Positions 7,000 to 13,732 of a DNA stretch of 64,000 bases are shown piece by piece (position 1 is the stretch's first letter; each line of letters starts with the position of its first letter). This stretch comes from Sphingopyxis sp. H115. Lineage in GTDB: Bacteria > Pseudomonadota > Alphaproteobacteria > Sphingomonadales > Sphingomonadaceae. Made by a program: the position numbers and the translations under genes. The notes under the pieces were generated by a model. It made no database searches, was not told the origin of the DNA, and saw nothing but the letters and a program-made list of their open reading frames with translations. The DNA lies in NCBI RefSeq assembly GCF_001468465.1, contig NZ_LNSA01000001.1, positions 1 to 64,000 on the forward strand. The letters run 5' to 3'.

Positions 7000-7308
7000 A
7001 TGATGCTGGTAGTGAATATCGAAGTCTGGCCTTGGGGCCGTGAGGAACGGAAGTACAAGATCGGCGAGATCACGGCCGGGAATATCTCGAACGGCCGCAT
7101 CGCAACCTACGAGGTTCGCGTCCAGTGCGATGGTTACGAGCCGGAAGGCGTACCCGCGATCGATGAAGAATTTCTGCTCCGCGATCACGACCGCGGCGCT
7201 GGGTCGCTCGCGCTGATACGTGACGCGCTGCTCGTCGCCGTGCCTCTGCCCGATGGGGCCGCCGGTGGGTCCGACGCCGGCTCTGGGTCGGCCGGGCCGG
7301 ACCTGTGA
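7000..7308 (+). CDS. Small unknown protein
   Basis: Two adjacent ATGs at 7000 and 7003 follow a good ribosome-binding sequence (aaggaag, 6991-6997), so the start is placed here rather than at an upstream GTG-like start. The product of about 102 residues has a beta-rich body (LVVNIEVWPWGREERKYKIG; GRIATYEVRVQCDGYEPEG) and a Gly/Ser/Ala-rich tail. It reads like a small cytoplasmic single-domain protein of unknown family. The next gene begins four bases after its stop. Confidence 0.55.
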   Translation: MMLVVNIEVWPWGREERKYKIGEITAGNISNGRIATYEVRVQCDGYEPEGVPAIDEEFLLRDHDRGAGSLALIRDALLVAVPLPDGAAGGSDAGSGSAGPDL

Positions 7309-7312
7309 GAAA

Positions 7313-7843
7313 ATGGACAAGCACCCCGGTTCCTCGAACTCCAGCTCCGCCGCCAGGACTGCCATCGCACGGTTCGCGCCGGCGAACCGTCGCCGGCTGA
7401 GCGGGGCAAGTCTGCGCACCTTCGTTGTGATCGCCAATCATTGGGGACTGACCGAGAAACAGCGCCGGCTGATCCTCGGCAATCCGGCTCGATCGACCTA
7501 TCAGGGCTGGGTCAAGAAAGCTCGCGAGCATCGGGACATCACGCTGAGCAGCGATATCCTGGTAAGGATTTCGGCGATCTTCGGGATTCATTTAGGTCTG
7601 AGGACGCTCTTCGGCGAGGAGCAAGAAGGCGTCGCATGGCTTCGTCGGCCACATGGTGCTCGGGTTTTCGGAGGAGCAGCGCCCATCGATCTCATCACCG
7701 GCGGAACTCAAGAAGCGCTGATGACCGTACGCCGCTTCATCGATGCTGCACGCGGCGGGCTCTACATGTCCCCGTCCTCAGATGAGGGGGACTGGCCTCC
7801 CTATGACGATAGCGAGATCATATTCGTTGATAGGGAAGAGTGA
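7313..7843 (+). CDS. Xre/MbcA/ParS-type antitoxin (DUF2384 family)
   Basis: The 176-residue product starts at the ATG at 7313, which lies just past the preceding stop and removes an implausible Pro/Cys-rich leader. Residues 35-70 form a helix-turn-helix-like segment (NHWGLTEKQRRLILGNP). Residues 82-151 carry the MbcA/ParS/Xre toxin-binding signature, ending FGGAAPIDLITGG...VRRFIDAARGGLY. These antitoxins normally sit directly before a RES-domain toxin that degrades NAD. No RES-type gene follows here: only a 52-residue minus-strand frame and a 50-residue plus-strand frame come next. The antitoxin is therefore an orphan, or its partner is unrecognised. Confidence 0.75.
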   Translation: MDKHPGSSNSSSAARTAIARFAPANRRRLSGASLRTFVVIANHWGLTEKQRRLILGNPARSTYQGWVKKAREHRDITLSSDILVRISAIFGIHLGLRTLFGEEQEGVAWLRRPHGARVFGGAAPIDLITGGTQEALMTVRRFIDAARGGLYMSPSSDEGDWPPYDDSEIIFVDREE

Positions 7844-8616: not shown

Positions 8617-9249
8617 TCAGCGCTGGTTCTGCGGCGCATCGAGCTGGGCGATCGTCGCCATCCGGACCAAATCGGACAACGTCTTCGCCTGCATCTTCAT
8701 CATGGCGTTCGCGCGATACACTTCGACCGTCCGCGCGCTGATCGATAGATCGAAGGCAATGGCCTTGTTCGCCTTACCCGCAACAAGGCCGTCGACGACT
8801 TCGCGCTCGCGTGCGGAAAGCCCAGCCATCCGGTCGAGGATCGATTGTCGTTCGGCACGTGCGTTTTCGCTTCCGGTTTGCTGCGCCAGCGCCCGCCGGA
8901 TCGCACTCAGCATGATTTCGTCGTCGAACGGTTTCTCGATGAAGTCGGCGACACCCGCCTTCATGGCCTGAATGGCGAGCGGAACATCGGCGTGACCGGT
9001 GATCACGATCACCGGGATTGCTACGCCGCGCACCTTCAATGCCTCGACCAGTTCGATACCGCTCGTGCCCGGCATCCGAACGTCGGTAACGACGCACGCG
9101 CCATCCAACGGCGGCGAGGCTTTCAGAAATACGTCGGCGGACGCAAAGCTCCGAACGCGAATTCCGGCACAATCGAGAAGAAATTCGAGTGAACTTCGCG
9201 CGCCATCGTCGTCGTCGATTACATAGACGATCGGATCACTCGGCATCAT
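8617..9249 (-). CDS. fixJ: FixJ-family two-component response regulator
   Basis: The 210-residue protein has an N-terminal receiver domain (acidic cluster DDDD at 12-15, phospho-acceptor Asp56 in TDVRMP, Lys in EKPF near 105) and a C-terminal LuxR-type helix-turn-helix (LSAREREVV...[19 protein letters not shown]). This is the full FixJ layout and length. Its start overlaps the end of fixL by 14 bases, so the kinase and regulator are co-translated. FixJ proteins are phosphorylated by FixL under low oxygen and activate target promoters. Here the adjacent divergent alternative oxidase-globin genes are the obvious candidate targets (inference). Confidence 0.92.
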
Positions 9250-10780
9250 TTAACTCCTCTTGGTTCATCCTCGGCAAGGTGAAGCTGAACCGCGCTCCGC
9301 CGTCGGGTACCGGATCGACCCAGATCTTTCCGCCATGCGCCTCGACGATGGTCCGCGAGATCGACAAGCCCACGCCCATACCGGTGCGTTTCGTCGTTAT
9401 GAAGGGCTGAAACAATTGCGCAGCGACGGCGGGGGCAATGCCGGGGCCGTTGTCGGTTACAGTCACCCGGGCCATGTCGCCATCGGCCTCGATTGCGATG
9501 GTCATTTCGCGGTTTCGAGCGGCCGTATCGGCAAAGGCATCGACCGCATTGCGGACGAGGTTCAGAACCACCTGTTGTATCTGCACCTTATCCACGAGCA
9601 CCAGATCGATGGCAGGATCGAAGGCGAAGTGAATGCGAATATCATGTTCGCGCGCGCCGACCAACGCGAGCGCGCTTGCCTCCTCGACCAGCTTGGGCAG
9701 GTTCTCGATCGCGCGCTCGGTCTCGCCACGCGCGACGAAATCGCGCAGCCGCCGGATGATATCCCCTGCGCGAAGCGCTTCCGCCGCGGCTTTTTCGACG
9801 GCTTCGGCCAGCCGATCGTGCGGGACGTCGTCGCGCGCAAGCAGCATTCTGCTGCCTCTTAGATAATTGGCAATCGCCGACAACGGCTGGTTGATCTCGT
9901 GCGCCAGCGCTGAGGCCATCTCGCCGAGACTCGTGAGGCGGGAGACGTGGACCAGTTCGTTCTGCAGTTCCTGCAATCGCGCCTCGGCCTGCTGGCGTTC
10001 GGTAAGGTCGCGAATGAAGCCGGTAAAGAAGCGCTCGCCGCCCGCCTGCATCTCTCCCACGGACAATTCGATCGGGAAGGTCGATCCGTCGCGCCGTTCG
10101 CCGACGACGATCCGCCCGGTTCCGATGATCCGCTTCTCGCCGGTCCGGTAATAGCATTCGAGATAACCGTCATGCGCCGCGCGATAGGGCTCGGGCATCA
10201 GCATCCGGACATTCTTGCCCACGGCTTCCTCCGACCGCCAACCGAACATGCGTTCGGCCGCCGGGCTGAAATCGCGTATTGTTCCCGCCTCGTCGATCAC
10301 GACCATGGCATCGGGCACGGTTTCGAGGATCGACCGCAAATGCGCCTCGCGACCCGCCAGAGCGGCAGCCCCATCCTCCGTTTCTACGCGGGCATGCTGG
10401 AACCACTCTCCACCCAGTGAGATTGCCAGCGAGATCACGAGGAACGAGGCGGCAGCTATCAGACTGCCGCCCTCGATGGGCCCGATACGGCTGTCGCACC
10501 ATAGGCCAGCCAACGCCCCGGCCAACGCCGCGAGGGCGCCGGCGCGAAGTCCCGAAAGCGCGCCGGCAACCACGACCCCCGGCACGAAGAAGATGAAGGT
10601 TGCGCGCTGACCAAGTTCGGCGGCGAAGAGAAGGCGAATCGCAACGCCCGCTGCCACGAAAAGCAGGGCGATTCCGACGGCGGCGAGCACCGGCAGGCGC
10701 GGAAGAAAACGGCTCGTCAGGCTCGCACGGCGGACCTCCGGTAAATCCCTTAGGGGAGATGCGGTAGGGACATCATCCAA
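9236..10780 (-). CDS. fixL: FixL-type membrane-bound haem-PAS oxygen-sensing histidine kinase
   Basis: No ATG fits. The TTG at 10780, preceded by GAGGAG, gives 514 residues and avoids overlap with the divergent oxidase gene; a longer frame to 11200 runs antisense to that gene and is rejected. Residues 28-125 contain about four membrane helices. A PAS domain at about 145-260 shows the FixL haem pocket: His203 in [11 protein letters not shown] is at the position of the haem-ligating His of Bradyrhizobium FixL, and Arg223 in [11 protein letters not shown] is at that of its oxygen-contacting Arg. The kinase core has the H-box [10 protein letters not shown] (His294), N-box near 407-411, DNGPG 443-447 and GMGVGLS 467-473. 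It should inhibit autophosphorylation when oxygen binds. Confidence 0.88.
10741..10757. promoter_or_regulatory. Candidate FixJ-type operator upstream of the alternative oxidase gene
   Basis: GTAAATCCCTTAGGGGA contains a near-palindromic CCCTTAGGG core (10747-10755). It lies about 105-120 bases before the oxidase ATG and inside the first codons of fixL. The T-A-rich half followed by CCCTTA recalls FixJ sites described upstream of rhizobial fixK genes. The similarity is from memory and the site is a proposal. Confidence 0.35.
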
Positions 10781-10861
10781 ATTTCCGCGCTCCTCGTTCC
10801 GGCCTATTTCGTCTCCATCGACGGCATCTTGAACCCCTGCCGCCGGAACGGAGATGTTCCA

Positions 10862-11551
10862 ATGACTGCACCTTTCATCGATCTCAGCGTCCATCACAAC
10901 CCCAAGGGCCTGTCCGATCGCGTCGCCTATGGCTTCACCAAGGTCTTGCGCTGGTGCGCCGACACCTTCTTCGCCGAGCGTTACGGCCACCGCGCTGTCG
11001 TACTCGAAACGGTCGCCGCGGTGCCGGGGATGGTGGGCGCCACGATCAACCACCTCGCCTGTCTCCGCCGCATGTGCGACGACAAGGGCTGGATCAAGAC
11101 GCTCATGGACGAGGCCGAGAATGAGCGCATGCATCTCATGACCTTCATCGAGATTTCCAAGCCTACCCTTTTCGAACGGGCCGTGATCATCGGCGTGCAA
11201 TGGGTGTTCTACGTCTGCTTCTTCGCACTTTACCTGATCAACTCAAAGACGGCGCACCGCGTCGTGGGCTATTTCGAGGAAGAGGCGGTGATCAGCTATA
11301 CGCATTATCTCGCCGAGATCGACGAAGGCCGCAGCGCCAATGTGCCTGCCCCGAAAATCGCGAAGGATTATTGGGGCCTGCCCGCCGATGCGACGCTACG
11401 CGATGTCGTCCTGGTGGTCCGCGCCGACGAAGCGCACCACCGCGATGTCAACCACGGCTTCGCCAACGAGCTTGCCGGTCTGCCGGTCGGCCCGGTGGCC
11501 GAATGCCCGCCGCATGTGGCGCTCGAACCCAACTGGAAAAAGGCGGCCTGA
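10862..11551 (+). CDS. aox: Alternative oxidase (diiron, cyanide-resistant quinol oxidase)
   Basis: The 229-residue protein is an alternative oxidase: it oxidises ubiquinol and reduces oxygen to water at the membrane without pumping protons. The diiron ligands are all visible: Glu49 in [12 protein letters not shown], Glu88 and His91 in ENERMHLM, the [12 protein letters not shown] glutamates at 139-141, and Glu190 and His193 in [12 protein letters not shown]. Two hydrophobic patches near 55-68 and 108-126 match the membrane-binding helices. The start at 10862 is chosen over an upstream ATG because the protein then begins with the expected short tail. It is divergent from fixL with about 80 bases between the starts, and heads a five-gene plus-strand unit. 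Bacterial AOX genes are uncommon and mostly alphaproteobacterial. Confidence 0.95.
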
Positions 11552-11577
11552 AAAGGTCCAAGCAAGGGAGCAAGGAC

Positions 11578-11922
11578 ATGGATCGCCCTGTGACAATCCT
11601 CGCGAGCGATCCTGCCCTTCTTTCCGCGCTCCGATTTTCACTGACGCTCGACGGGTTTGATGTTCGCGGCAACGCCGAACCTCCTGCGAGCCACATCTGC
11701 CTGATCATCGATCAGGGTTTTCGCGGCGACGGGTTTGCGTGGCTCGCCAGCCTCCGGGCGAACGGCAATACGGCACCGGCCATTTTGCTCGTGACGCATC
11801 CCGACCGCGTCGTTCGCGCCTCCGCCGCGGCGCTCGGTGCCCGGCTGATCGAGAAGCCGCTAACGGGCGACGAATTGACCGACGCCCTGACCGATATCCT
11901 GACCCATCGCCCCGCCGCGTGA
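11578..11922 (+). CDS. Stand-alone receiver-domain protein with degenerate acidic pocket
   Basis: The 114-residue protein has CheY-like topology: beta1 VTILASDP, beta3 ICLIIDQGF with a candidate acceptor Asp, beta4 AILLVTH with the conserved Thr, and beta5 RLIEKPLTGDELTDAL with the conserved Lys-Pro. The usual acidic pair after beta1 is reduced to a single Asp (ASDP). It therefore may bind phosphate weakly or act as a phosphorylation-independent partner. It sits 26 bases after the oxidase and 34 bases before the globin. A feedback or sink role for FixL, like FixT or a single-domain CheY, is possible but inferred. Confidence 0.75.
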   Translation: MDRPVTILASDPALLSALRFSLTLDGFDVRGNAEPPASHICLIIDQGFRGDGFAWLASLRANGNTAPAILLVTHPDRVVRASAAALGARLIEKPLTGDELTDALTDILTHRPAA

Positions 11923-11956
11923 CAGTCACGGCACCAACCAAGAAAAGGAACACGGC

Positions 11957-12406
11957 ATGCGCACCGCCTCTCCCCAAGCCATGGCCATCGTCAAATCGAC
12001 CGCGCCAGCACTCGAAAAGCACGGCGTCGAGATCACTACTGCCATGTACGCGCGGCTCTTTCGTAATCCCGCCATCGAGGCGCTGTTCGACAAGGCCGCC
12101 CAGAGCAGCGGCGAGCAGCCACGACGACTTGCGGGCGCCATCCTTGCCTACGCCCGCAACATAGACAAGCTCGCGAACCTCGGCCCCGCCGTCTCAAGGA
12201 TGGTCGCGCGCCATGTCGAAACCGGCGTCAGGCCCGAGCAATATCCCTATGTTGCCGAAGCCTTGCTTCCTGCGATTCGCGACGTACTCGGACCAGACGT
12301 CGCGACCGACGAGGTGCTGGCAGCGTGGGGCGAGGCTTATTGGATGCTCGCCGACATTCTCATGGCCGCGGAAGCGCGAGCCTATGAAGACGCCGTGGCA
12401 GCCTAA
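11957..12406 (+). CDS. Single-domain haemoglobin (Vitreoscilla/flavohaemoglobin type)
   Basis: The 149-residue globin corresponds to the globin half of flavohaemoglobin without the reductase. Key residues are visible: TyrB10 (Tyr31 in MYARLF), distal GlnE7 (Gln54 in GEQPRRLAGAI), proximal HisF8 (His86 in ARHVETGVRPEQYPYV) and the Tyr96/Glu139 pair that in this family contacts the proximal His. These residues suit oxygen binding and nitric oxide dioxygenation. No reductase domain follows, so it would need an external reductase. Its place between an alternative oxidase and a truncated globin points to low-oxygen or NO defence. Confidence 0.92.
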   Translation: MRTASPQAMAIVKSTAPALEKHGVEITTAMYARLFRNPAIEALFDKAAQSSGEQPRRLAGAILAYARNIDKLANLGPAVSRMVARHVETGVRPEQYPYVAEALLPAIRDVLGPDVATDEVLAAWGEAYWMLADILMAAEARAYEDAVAA

Positions 12407-12419
12407 CCGGGAAGACCGA

Positions 12420-12803
12420 ATGGAACCGCAACTATCCGAGCAGGACCTCGCGAAGCTCATTCCAGAATTTTACGCGCGGGTCAGGGCCGATCCAGTTCTT
12501 GGTCCGATCTTCGATAGCGCAATCGCCGACTGGGACGAGCATCTTGAAAAGCTGCAAGCCTTCTGGTCGTCGATCATGCTTACGAGCGGGCGGTATAAGG
12601 GTCAGCCGATGGTCGCCCATCTGCGTCACGAAGGCGCCATGACTATGGGCAATTTCGGCCGCTGGCTGGCGTTGTGGCAAAAAACTACCGGAGATGTTCT
12701 CGATCGGGACAATGCGGCCGCGCTTCAGGCAAAGGCAGCGCGGATCGCCGAGAGCCTGCAGCATGGCGTCCAGTTCCAGCGCGAACGATTGGCTGGATCG
12801 TGA
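12420..12803 (+). CDS. Group III truncated haemoglobin
   Basis: The 127-residue protein matches group III truncated globins (trHbP): N-terminal LIPEFYARVRADPVLGPIF, then AFWSSIMLTSGRYKGQPMVAH (shown without its last residues), with the proximal histidine candidate in the P-M-x-x-H segment at 64-67, and FGRWLALWQKT at 79-89. The ATG at 12420 is 11 bases after the globin stop. The family is linked to NO or microaerobic metabolism in Campylobacter (Ctb). Its stop overlaps the GTG start of the next gene, which indicates coupling. Confidence 0.88.
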   Translation: MEPQLSEQDLAKLIPEFYARVRADPVLGPIFDSAIADWDEHLEKLQAFWSSIMLTSGRYKGQPMVAHLRHEGAMTMGNFGRWLALWQKTTGDVLDRDNAAALQAKAARIAESLQHGVQFQRERLAGS

Positions 12804-13087
12804 CCGCTGTCCTGCCAGTCGGCGTGCAGCCCTATAAGCGAAAGGCCACCTTCACCGAAACCACGACGCCCGCGGCGTTGCTGGGCGATCATGCCACAAA
12901 AACGGGCGTCTGGGGTTTGATCCATGTCGAAGAGGGTAGCTTATGCTATCTCATAACAGACGAACGAAGACCGCTTTCCGAAAAAATACTGACGCCGATG
13001 ACCGGGCCTGGCATCGTCGAACCCACGATAGCACACAGGGTCGAGGCGAGAGGGCCGGTACGCTTCTATGTCGAGTTTCTACGCTGA
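12800..13087 (+). CDS. DUF1971 small cupin (TehB-N-terminal-like)
   Basis: The GTG at 12800 overlaps the truncated-globin stop (GTGA) and gives 95 residues: a DUF1971 domain with the ATFTETTTPAALLGDH and VWGLIHVEEGSLCY segments and the closing IAHRVEARGPVRFYVEF strand. This cupin-like domain occurs alone or fused to TehB methyltransferase, and often travels with haemoglobin and NO-stress genes. The ligand is unknown. It closes the oxygen/NO module. Confidence 0.82.
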   Translation: MTAVLPVGVQPYKRKATFTETTTPAALLGDHATKTGVWGLIHVEEGSLCYLITDERRPLSEKILTPMTGPGIVEPTIAHRVEARGPVRFYVEFLR

Positions 13088-13375
13088 GGCGAACAGGGCG
13101 AGTTGCTCTCCGATGGCTCGGAGCGCGACTTCTATAGTGCGGCCTGGCGTCTGGCGCGTGCCGACAGCTTCGAACTCCTAGTGTGAAGTCCTAAACAATG
13201 GTGCCTAGCCGCGAGGGCCGTTCCCGTCGCTGGCGCCAACCACCACGCCCGTGAAAAGCATAGCTGTTCGGCACTTCGTCGCGGATACCGAACGCTTGGC
13301 CGACCATTGGACGCAAGCTGTTGGAACATCGGCTTAATTCGGAACCGATCGCATGTTGGGAGCAGAGCCGAAAAG
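13088..13375. other. Intergenic region without a convincing gene
   Basis: A 33-codon plus-strand stretch right after the cupin stop (about 13091-13187, with LLSDGSERDFYSAAWRLAR) reads like a decayed gene end, but it has no start. Nothing else is recognised before the exported protein at 13376. Confidence 0.3.
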
Positions 13376-13732
13376 ATGCATGGATTTTCGCTTTCCTTGG
13401 CTGGGCTAGGCATCGCTACTGTCTTGTTTGCTTCTTCTTCGCCGGTTGCGGCCCAGTTGTCTCCGGCGCCGGCAGCTGAACGGGGTTGCACGTTCGAGAC
13501 CCTGACGCAGGAAGAAAAATCCCGATACCAGTCGCGCTACAAGCGGAGGGTTCGTGTGGATGGCCAAGCCTATGCGGACAAATGGCTATACGAACAGGTG
13601 TGCCTGACCGCTGCGGAGCGAAAGGCGCTCCGGCCGCCGGCAAAGGGAAAAAACTGCCGAGCGGTCTCGCGTCCAGTCACCAGCATGGACGGCTCCATGA
13701 CCGTTGGGATCGGACGCGTTTGCAAGAATTGA
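13376..13732 (+). CDS. Small secreted protein of unknown function
   Basis: The internal ATG at 13376 gives 118 residues with a clean signal peptide (hydrophobic core SLAGLGIATVLFASSSPVAA, cleavage likely after AAA/VAA near residue 26). The mature part is basic (EEKSRYQSRYKRRVRVDGQ) with four cysteines (GCTF, QVCL, NCRA, VCKN), suggesting two disulfides in the periplasm. The longer frame from 13307 lacks a signal peptide at its N-terminus and is not preferred. No family was recognised. Confidence 0.6.
   Translation: MHGFSLSLAGLGIATVLFASSSPVAAQLSPAPAAERGCTFETLTQEEKSRYQSRYKRRVRVDGQAYADKWLYEQVCLTAAERKALRPPAKGKNCRAVSRPVTSMDGSMTVGIGRVCKN

Follow-up and report, generated by a model that had tools for sequence, protein, structure and literature searches.

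The window analysed here, the first 64,000 nucleotides of contig NZ_LNSA01000001.1 of Sphingopyxis sp. H115, contains at positions 8617-13087 seven genes, in which the pair fixJ-fixL on the minus strand diverges from five co-directional genes on the plus strand, the first of them, aox, encoding an alternative oxidase (AOX). In the published accounts drawn on here, the FixL/FixJ pair usually acts through a second regulator, FixK. For this module, direct activation of aox by FixLJ, without FixK, is the most likely reading of the sequence, because the core of a FixJ-type promoter element is present in 67 of 77 aox loci with an adjoining divergent fixL, in none of 29 diverged aox loci and in 12 of 20 close loci without adjoining fixL, and because the only match in the own genome lies at this very promoter. 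Moreover, we consider it probable that the module as a whole represents a rewired FixLJ branch, in which FixJ would directly control aox and thereby NO (nitric oxide)-resistant respiration, with damping of the signal by a FixT-like receiver.

The promoter element of aox

Alignment of 14 fixL-aox regions revealed a conserved block at 10736-10784, which consists of a distal part, CCTCCGGTAA..CCCTTAGGG at 10736-10755, and a proximal part, TAG-N8-TCCAAATTT at 10765-10784. In 11 of the 14 aligned loci, a distal CCTCCGGTAA-NN-CCCTTAGGG-like part is combined with a proximal one resembling TAG-N8-YCCAA(A)TTT; the other three (L036, L046 and L066) feature the proximal part only. According to PMC4999443, fixK promoters carry a TAAG element at about -64 and the box CSNAATWT at about -33, and the FixJ site of Sinorhizobium meliloti is TAAGTAATTTCCCTTA. 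With its TAAG/CTTA element and its CSNAATWT box at FixJ spacing, the element of the window may be classed as a FixJ-dependent promoter. The TAAGTAATTTCCCTTA site was located upstream of the fixK-type gene in the S. meliloti pSymA record, where the proximal box then lies at identical spacing, and the core, written as TAG-N8-YCC[AG]A, matches once on either strand of this 11.4-kb S. meliloti region, namely at the fixK promoter. The fixK-type promoters of M. ciceri, A. tumefaciens and Methylobacterium contain CCCTTA- or GTAGGG-like and GAATTT boxes, a resemblance judged by eye, and CSNAATWT is found in three of the four rhizobial fixK-type promoters, being missing in A. tumefaciens; a fifth, unannotated rhizobial region (Ensifer, L235) was left out of the comparison. 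As a measure of chance occurrence, the core appeared in 63 of 8000 random 160-base windows drawn from the four rhizobial regions.

The counts given above derive from a pooled set of 126 aox loci, which comprises 77 loci with a divergent fixL within 400 bases, 20 unlinked loci with at least 80% AOX identity to the window and 29 loci below 80%; these are not all independent, since 8 of the 38 loci of the family share their central 600 bases with one of the 80 named loci. Among the 68 distinct upstream sequences of the linked loci, 58 carry the core within 200 bases. Of 6300 shuffled sequences (mononucleotide shuffles only), 96 contained the core.

The possibility that the conserved DNA is mere 5' coding sequence of fixL was ruled out. 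The frame of the element relative to fixL varies between loci, and the element survives without adjoining fixL, for instance upstream of aox on a plasmid of Sphingomonas sp. R1 (L083), which features no fixLJ within 5 kb. For these two reasons the element is assigned to aox.

Downstream of the block, most rows of the 14-locus alignment retain, on visual inspection, a TA step near 10803-10810. It constitutes a possible -10 region, which would place the start of the aox transcript near 10815; the start is expected about 30-35 bases downstream of CCAAATTT. A sigma-70 consensus promoter was not found in 10600-13500, and the strict sigma-70 reading was dropped.

A probable dedicated target in the genome and FixL encoded in trans

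In the own 4.49-Mb genome, two search patterns built on the element gave one match each, both at the aox promoter, while reversed-pattern controls gave none. Across 23 genomes, the composite pattern yielded 11 matches, 10 of them at aox and one stray, as opposed to three for the reversed control. The own genome has a single ccoN gene (cbb3 oxidase), which adjoins a Crp/Fnr gene. Since the sole pattern match lies at aox and ccoN resides next to a Crp/Fnr gene, FixLJ-aox appears to have taken the place of the classical FixLJ-FixK-cbb3 chain in this genome. An additional control of cbb3 or fixK by FixJ via the same promoter was discarded on the same grounds, as the patterns used gave no second match.

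Of the 20 unlinked loci with close AOX, 14 had their whole genomes searched for FixL, seven with the core and seven without. All seven genomes of core-bearing loci encode a near full-length FixL elsewhere. Among those without core, four contain only partial FixL matches (L119, L120, L131, L148) and three a near full-length FixL (L122, L147, L151). Two of the FixLs of the core-bearing genomes (L172, L173) group with aox-linked FixLs in the tree.

These observations bear on the alternative that fixLJ adjoins aox by coincidence only, with FixJ serving just fixL or distant genes and another regulator governing aox. Such a coincidence would accommodate the 20 of 97 aox loci with at least 80% identity that lack a divergent fixL (one of which, L153, has just 168 bases of upstream sequence), and likewise the genome G186, which encodes a FixL of the window lineage in the absence of any AOX. 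However, it leaves unexplained an element that is directed at aox and resembles fixK promoters, that is retained at 12 of the 20 close unlinked loci and whose search patterns have no other match in the own genome, and we regard it as highly improbable.

Genes and proteins of the module

In its proposed check, the earlier note on this DNA had spoken of six genes; all genes that it lists are present and correctly placed, and their number is seven. The features are as follows.

8617..9249, minus strand: fixJ, response regulator (NCBIfam NF006900; Pfam Response_reg and GerE)
9236..10783, minus strand: fixL, haem-PAS histidine kinase (Pfam PAS, HisKA, HATPase; start codon uncertain)
10736..10784, plus strand: predicted aox operon promoter element of the FixJ type (footprint alignment, 14 loci)
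10803..10810, plus strand: putative -10 region (conserved TA step, by eye)
10862..11551, plus strand: aox, diiron alternative oxidase, a quinol oxidase (Pfam AOX, 4e-85; alignment to solved AOX)
11578..11922, plus strand: lone receiver domain, FixT-like (NCBIfam FixT, 1.6e-9, below cut-off)
11957..12406, plus strand: single-domain globin of the flavohaemoglobin/Vitreoscilla type (Pfam Globin; globin half of NCBIfam flavohaemoprotein; 1vhb, 1.5e-34)
12420..12803, plus strand: group III truncated haemoglobin (2ig3, 9.4e-15)
12800..13087, plus strand: DUF1971 cupin (Pfam DUF1971, 1.6e-20; TehB homologue 3m70, residues 8-81, 2.3e-6)

The start region of fixJ overlaps the end of fixL, and the start of fixL is itself uncertain (the TTG at 10783, or a codon downstream of it) because this TTG sits within the promoter element. 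From aox to the cupin gene, the intergenic gaps measure 26, 34 and 13 bases and are followed by a 4-base overlap of the truncated globin and cupin genes, so that a single transcript is likely.

The fixJ product, with a receiver and a LuxR-type DNA-binding domain, passes the NCBIfam FixJ model (278.9 bits, cut-off 255). For the fixL product, the best NCBIfam model is that of rhizobial FixL, at 559.7 bits and thus below the cut-off of 850; hence it is classed as a FixL in the broad sense and not as the rhizobial equivalog. It is 50% identical to S. meliloti FixL across residues 33-504, and its membrane anchor was judged by eye from hydrophobic stretches. Residues His 194 and Arg 214 of the S. 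meliloti protein, which we take to be the proximal haem ligand and the O2 contact, are kept in 76 and all 77 of the aox-linked FixLs, respectively, the window protein included in both cases and the sole gap being L100, which bears out what had been stated for the window FixL. In the S. meliloti pSymA record (L086), fixJ is unannotated and broken across two frames, by either a sequencing error or a true lesion.

The oxidase and the globins likewise keep the residues in question, as had been claimed. The AOX protein keeps the motifs LET, NERMH, EEEA and RADE..H, presumably the diiron ligands, in alignment to solved AOX, and together with the Pfam match these uphold the assignment as alternative oxidase. 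For the single-domain globin, the closest solved structure is Vitreoscilla haemoglobin, to which its presumed proximal His aligns. The truncated globin matched no Pfam or NCBIfam model; its alignment to 2ig3, which we take to be Ctb, matches a Tyr, two His and a Trp of the haem pocket, to which we assign the roles of distal Tyr and His, proximal His and Trp, and the group III assignment holds. The folds of the FixL PAS domain, AOX, both globins and the cupin are thus settled by solved relatives. Next to the module, 7220-7843 holds an open reading frame (ORF) resembling Xre/MbcA/ParS-type antitoxins.

Distribution, phylogeny and plasmid copies

AOX is encoded in 38 of 199 genomes of the family, the own genome counted. 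A divergent fixJL accompanies all 13 further family loci whose AOX is at least 80% identical to that of the window, and none of the 25 below 80%, although in two of these (L048, L060) another fixLJ pair, differently arranged, lies in the vicinity. In a scan of species genomes, of which the best 80 of 535 AOX relatives were kept as named loci, 61 of these 80 possess a divergent fixL; they belong to the Sphingomonadales and the Caulobacteraceae (Brevundimonas, Phenylobacterium). The proposal would have been in difficulty if most homologous clusters lacked fixLJ. This is not so among close relatives; over all 38 family loci, divergent fixL is present at 13. Conversely, a FixL-like match at 1e-60 occurs in 88 of the 199 genomes, while only 15 encode a FixL that is at least 62% identical along the greater part of its length; in 14 of them it lies at aox, the exception being G186.

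A FixL tree was computed from 106 sequences (118 minus identical copies and rows shorter than 340 residues; midpoint root). In this tree, a group of 71 unites 67 linked FixLs, three encoded in trans and a further one from the family, with an SH-aLRT value of 90, below the mark of 95. By its nearest FixL and AOX, the organism of the window is related to Sphingopyxis. Plasmids typed as conjugative carry copies of the fixJL-aox arrangement in R. wittichii RW1 (Swit_5293-5299), S. yanoikuyae, S. xenophagum and S. bisphenolicum. The tree barely separates the FixLs of the RW1 plasmid, the S. yanoikuyae plasmid and a Sphingopyxis metagenome-assembled genome (L124), which suggests recent transfer. Genes annotated as cyclic-di-GMP enzymes follow the plasmid copies of RW1 (L082, 7336-9468) and S. 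bisphenolicum (L237, 6320-8469). Three genomes, those of S. turrisvirgatae, S. tagetis and B. alba, harbour two fixJL-aox loci each (L115/L118, L116/L134 and L139/L141), and the two of S. turrisvirgatae differ in downstream cargo.

The lone receiver

A receiver ORF lies downstream of aox in 61 of the 77 linked loci. The earlier note had recorded the one in the window simply as a lone receiver; it is indeed present, but a feedback inhibitor akin to FixT is the more fitting interpretation. It consists of a single receiver domain, stands beside fixLJ and behind the FixJ-type element, and its transcript would thus be expected to come under FixJ control. Its best model is NCBIfam FixT (1.6e-9), at 37.8 bits against a cut-off of 150. 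In a sample of 13 receivers from 52 distinct ones, the FixT model (E 0.001) matched all 13 and the FixJ model 10. A profile of the receivers gave 66.6 bits for the receiver of the window FixJ, 38.4 for S. meliloti FixT and 28.0 for a truncated S. meliloti FixJ, so that descent from FixJ's own receiver appears as likely as orthology to FixT. The designation as a proven FixT was rejected on account of the unreached cut-off and the greater proximity to the FixJ receiver. The window receiver has one Cys, whose aligned position in S. meliloti FixT is also a Cys, and lacks the 4-Cys motif described for Caulobacter FixT. All in all, it looks best described as FixT-like, that is, as a putative FixL antikinase.

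Alternatively, the receiver may act as a phosphate sink or as a decoy that descends from the receiver of FixJ. The profile scores and the canonical appearance of the Phenylobacterium receivers lend themselves to this interpretation. On the other hand, receivers range from such canonical-looking forms to the decayed ones of Sphingopyxis, the acidic pocket has decayed in the window lineage, and the acceptor Asp reads Glu in L038, L042, L099, L109 and L114 (Croceibacterium, Altericroceibacterium, Erythrobacter, Sphingomonas sp. Ag1 and Pacificimonas), the last two features being unlike a phosphate sink. In addition, the FixT model matched every receiver sampled, and the FixTs studied in published work were not observed to be phosphorylated. 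A sink or decoy is therefore somewhat unlikely.

In one Sphingomonas genome, whose aox lies elsewhere (L122), a receiver gene instead of aox diverges from fixLJ across a FixJ core (L171, 842-1504). This layout suggests that FixJ may target the receiver gene independently of aox.

Globin and cupin cargo and the link to nitric oxide

Cargo was counted within 4 kb of the 77 linked aox loci. A truncated globin occurs in 46 and the cupin in 41; a single-domain globin match occurs in 28, eight of which are full flavohaemoglobins. Receiver, both globins and cupin are found together in 18. In close relatives, then, the fixJL-aox pairing is common, and globins and cupin are variable additions to it. 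No globin or cupin at all accompanies 22 of the loci, and NO defence is hence not obligatory for the unit. The idea that globins and cupin are essential to it was ruled out by these counts. The notion of the genes forming one unit stands for fixLJ, aox and the downstream genes, joined by a probable FixJ-type promoter, but not for a constant presence of globins and cupin.

The effector genes also occur apart from FixLJ. In the diverged aox group, a group III truncated haemoglobin (trHb3), aox, DUF1971 and a full flavohaemoglobin adjoin an Rrf2-type repressor at L037, L056, L058 and L085; variants lack a detected cupin (L067) or flavohaemoglobin (L072) or show another order (L064, L089). Two of these repressors were scored and fit NsrR best, at 136.2 and 129.9 bits against a cut-off of 182. 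A scan for what we take to be the NsrR-like palindrome, with up to three mismatches allowed, identified a box in three of eight repressor-linked loci (L037, L067 and L085, not L056, L058, L071, L072 or L089) and gave no match in 1.03 Mb of fixL-linked loci. In the own genome, a search with the NsrR model yielded two weak matches, both below cut-off. The combination of AOX, globins and DUF1971 is therefore not dependent on FixLJ: judging by these layouts, a single effector set is paired with either an NsrR-like regulator or FixLJ. Its position beside an NsrR-like repressor in related sphingomonads points to nitric oxide, and the cupin may be linked to NO genes through guilt by association. At a distant aox (46% identity) on a Chelatococcus plasmid (L088, 1994-5639), a Crp/Fnr gene, and thus a third kind of regulator, adjoins aox near nirK, a context in which NO may be produced.

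Published work on sphingomonads ascribes aox induction to NO and, in the portions consulted, names no sphingomonad regulator for aox. In S. granuli TFA, PMC6472365 reports that anoxia with nitrate raised aox about 5-fold in RNA-seq data and about 450-fold in induction kinetics. The rise was 17-fold when nitrate was left out or narG was mutated, 70-fold when NO was supplied in place of nitrate and about 5-fold with DETA-NO in air. A study of fnrN/fixK mutants lists aox among probably NO-induced genes (PMC7713065). According to a review, S. meliloti FixLJ participates in NO sensing and hmp induction. The S. granuli type strain NBRC 100800 (L098) possesses fixJL-aox with the core.

A plain low-oxygen module constitutes the alternative at the level of the signal: FixL would sense O2 only, the globins would store or deliver O2, AOX would serve as an overflow for reducing power, and NO would play no part. 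Storage or delivery of O2 is the proposed role of Vitreoscilla haemoglobin, the nearest solved structure of the single-domain globin, and the loci devoid of globin and cupin fit this view as well; FixL, moreover, is an established O2 sensor in published work (PMC4999443 among the sources). Against it stand the effector genes that certain relatives carry next to an NsrR-like repressor, the response of S. granuli TFA aox to NO in air and its far weaker induction by anoxia in the absence of nitrate, and, in Campylobacter, a pair of single-domain and truncated globins under a single NO regulator, NssR. Considering the module itself, AOX is, to our knowledge, not a high-affinity oxidase, which also counts against an O2-only function. 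Taken together, this alternative appears unlikely, and a signal of low O2 or NO, as suggested by the S. granuli and S. meliloti work, may be preferred.

Proposed mechanism and its standing

In the proposed mechanism, the FixL haem would lose O2, either at low O2 or possibly by NO reacting with or displacing it, upon which FixL would phosphorylate FixJ. FixJ-P would then bind to 10736-10784 and switch on the operon of aox, receiver, the two globins and cupin. AOX would draw electrons from quinol and thereby maintain respiration while NO blocks haem oxidases at low O2, and the two globins would oxidise or scavenge NO. The FixT-like receiver, finally, would bind FixL and damp the signal. Genes, gene order, promoter element, conservation and the sole genome match are read from the sequence; FixJ binding, the NO role and the feedback role are inferred.

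Several observations weigh against this reading. As to the wiring, the core was written post hoc, after inspection of the alignment; its exact form matches one of the four rhizobial fixK-type promoters, that of S. meliloti; 10 of the 77 linked loci are devoid of it; 13 of the 23 genomes have no match to the composite pattern, which is strict; and five of the seven trans FixLs belong to a neighbouring group of the tree. As to feedback, the shortfall of the receiver from the FixT cut-off and its higher score on the window FixJ receiver belong here as well. With respect to NO, the same holds for the 22 linked loci without cargo, for the 17 of 25 diverged family loci that also lack globin and cupin within 4 kb, and for RirA, which came a close second for both repressors (123.0 and 124.8 bits), so that the NsrR assignment is not firm. 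Furthermore, strain NBRC 100800 lacks receiver, globins and cupin, and the induction data stem from strain TFA, the locus being read in the type strain.

On balance, the proposed direct wiring from FixJ to aox is strengthened, with low O2 or NO as candidate signals. The unit appears to be a conserved fixJL-aox core, usually with the receiver, often with NO-handling cargo and sometimes plasmid-borne. A further-reaching and tentative proposal, which we would not favour as it stands, is that this FixLJ lineage is a local sensor of the NO/O2 ratio, NO displacing or destroying FixL-O2 even in air, and that FixJ, without FixK, directly turns on an AOX-globin cassette which conjugative plasmids carry from one sphingomonad to another. 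In evolution, a haem two-component switch and an NO repressor of the iron-sulphur type would then have been exchanged on one gene set.

If the reading is true, a widespread non-symbiotic branch of FixLJ with AOX as direct target would represent a clear case of rewiring, and a candidate regulator would be at hand for sphingomonad aox, which is reported to be strongly induced by anoxia and NO. The system would also provide a direct test of FixL as an NO switch. In the open literature searched (including PMC7713065, PMC3820574, PMC1274295 and PMC4123721), no paper describing fixJL-aox linkage was found; PMC7713065 mentions FixLJ once, in its introduction, and the single mention of Swit_5299 in PMC4123721 presents it as a putative hmp gene.

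Comparison with known systems

The closest counterpart is the FixLJ-FixK-FixT circuit of S. meliloti and Caulobacter, which shares the haem-PAS FixL, FixJ and a FixT-like receiver with the window and whose fixK promoter, in S. meliloti, has the same FixJ-type spacing as the aox promoter. It differs in that the window carries aox instead of fixK behind the FixJ promoter, that cbb3 in this genome adjoins its own Crp/Fnr gene, and that the 4-Cys motif of Caulobacter FixT is missing from the receiver.

With the NsrR-controlled aox of Vibrio fischeri and with the NsrR-like aox-globin-DUF1971-hmp clusters of sphingomonads, the module shares an AOX with or beside NO-defence genes and a presumed response to NO. 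In the window, however, a haem two-component system replaces the Rrf2-type repressor, and a single-domain globin takes the place of the full flavohaemoglobin of the sphingomonad clusters.

A pair of single-domain and truncated globins is also known from Campylobacter jejuni, as Cgb and Ctb, where it is subject to the Crp/Fnr-type regulator NssR in place of FixLJ and, in the account consulted, no AOX is named. Control of hmp under NO by FixLJ in S. meliloti, as reviewed, likewise links FixLJ to the expression of an NO-handling globin; there, the NO response encompasses more than 100 genes and is shared with NnrR, whereas in the window it would be focused on one local operon.

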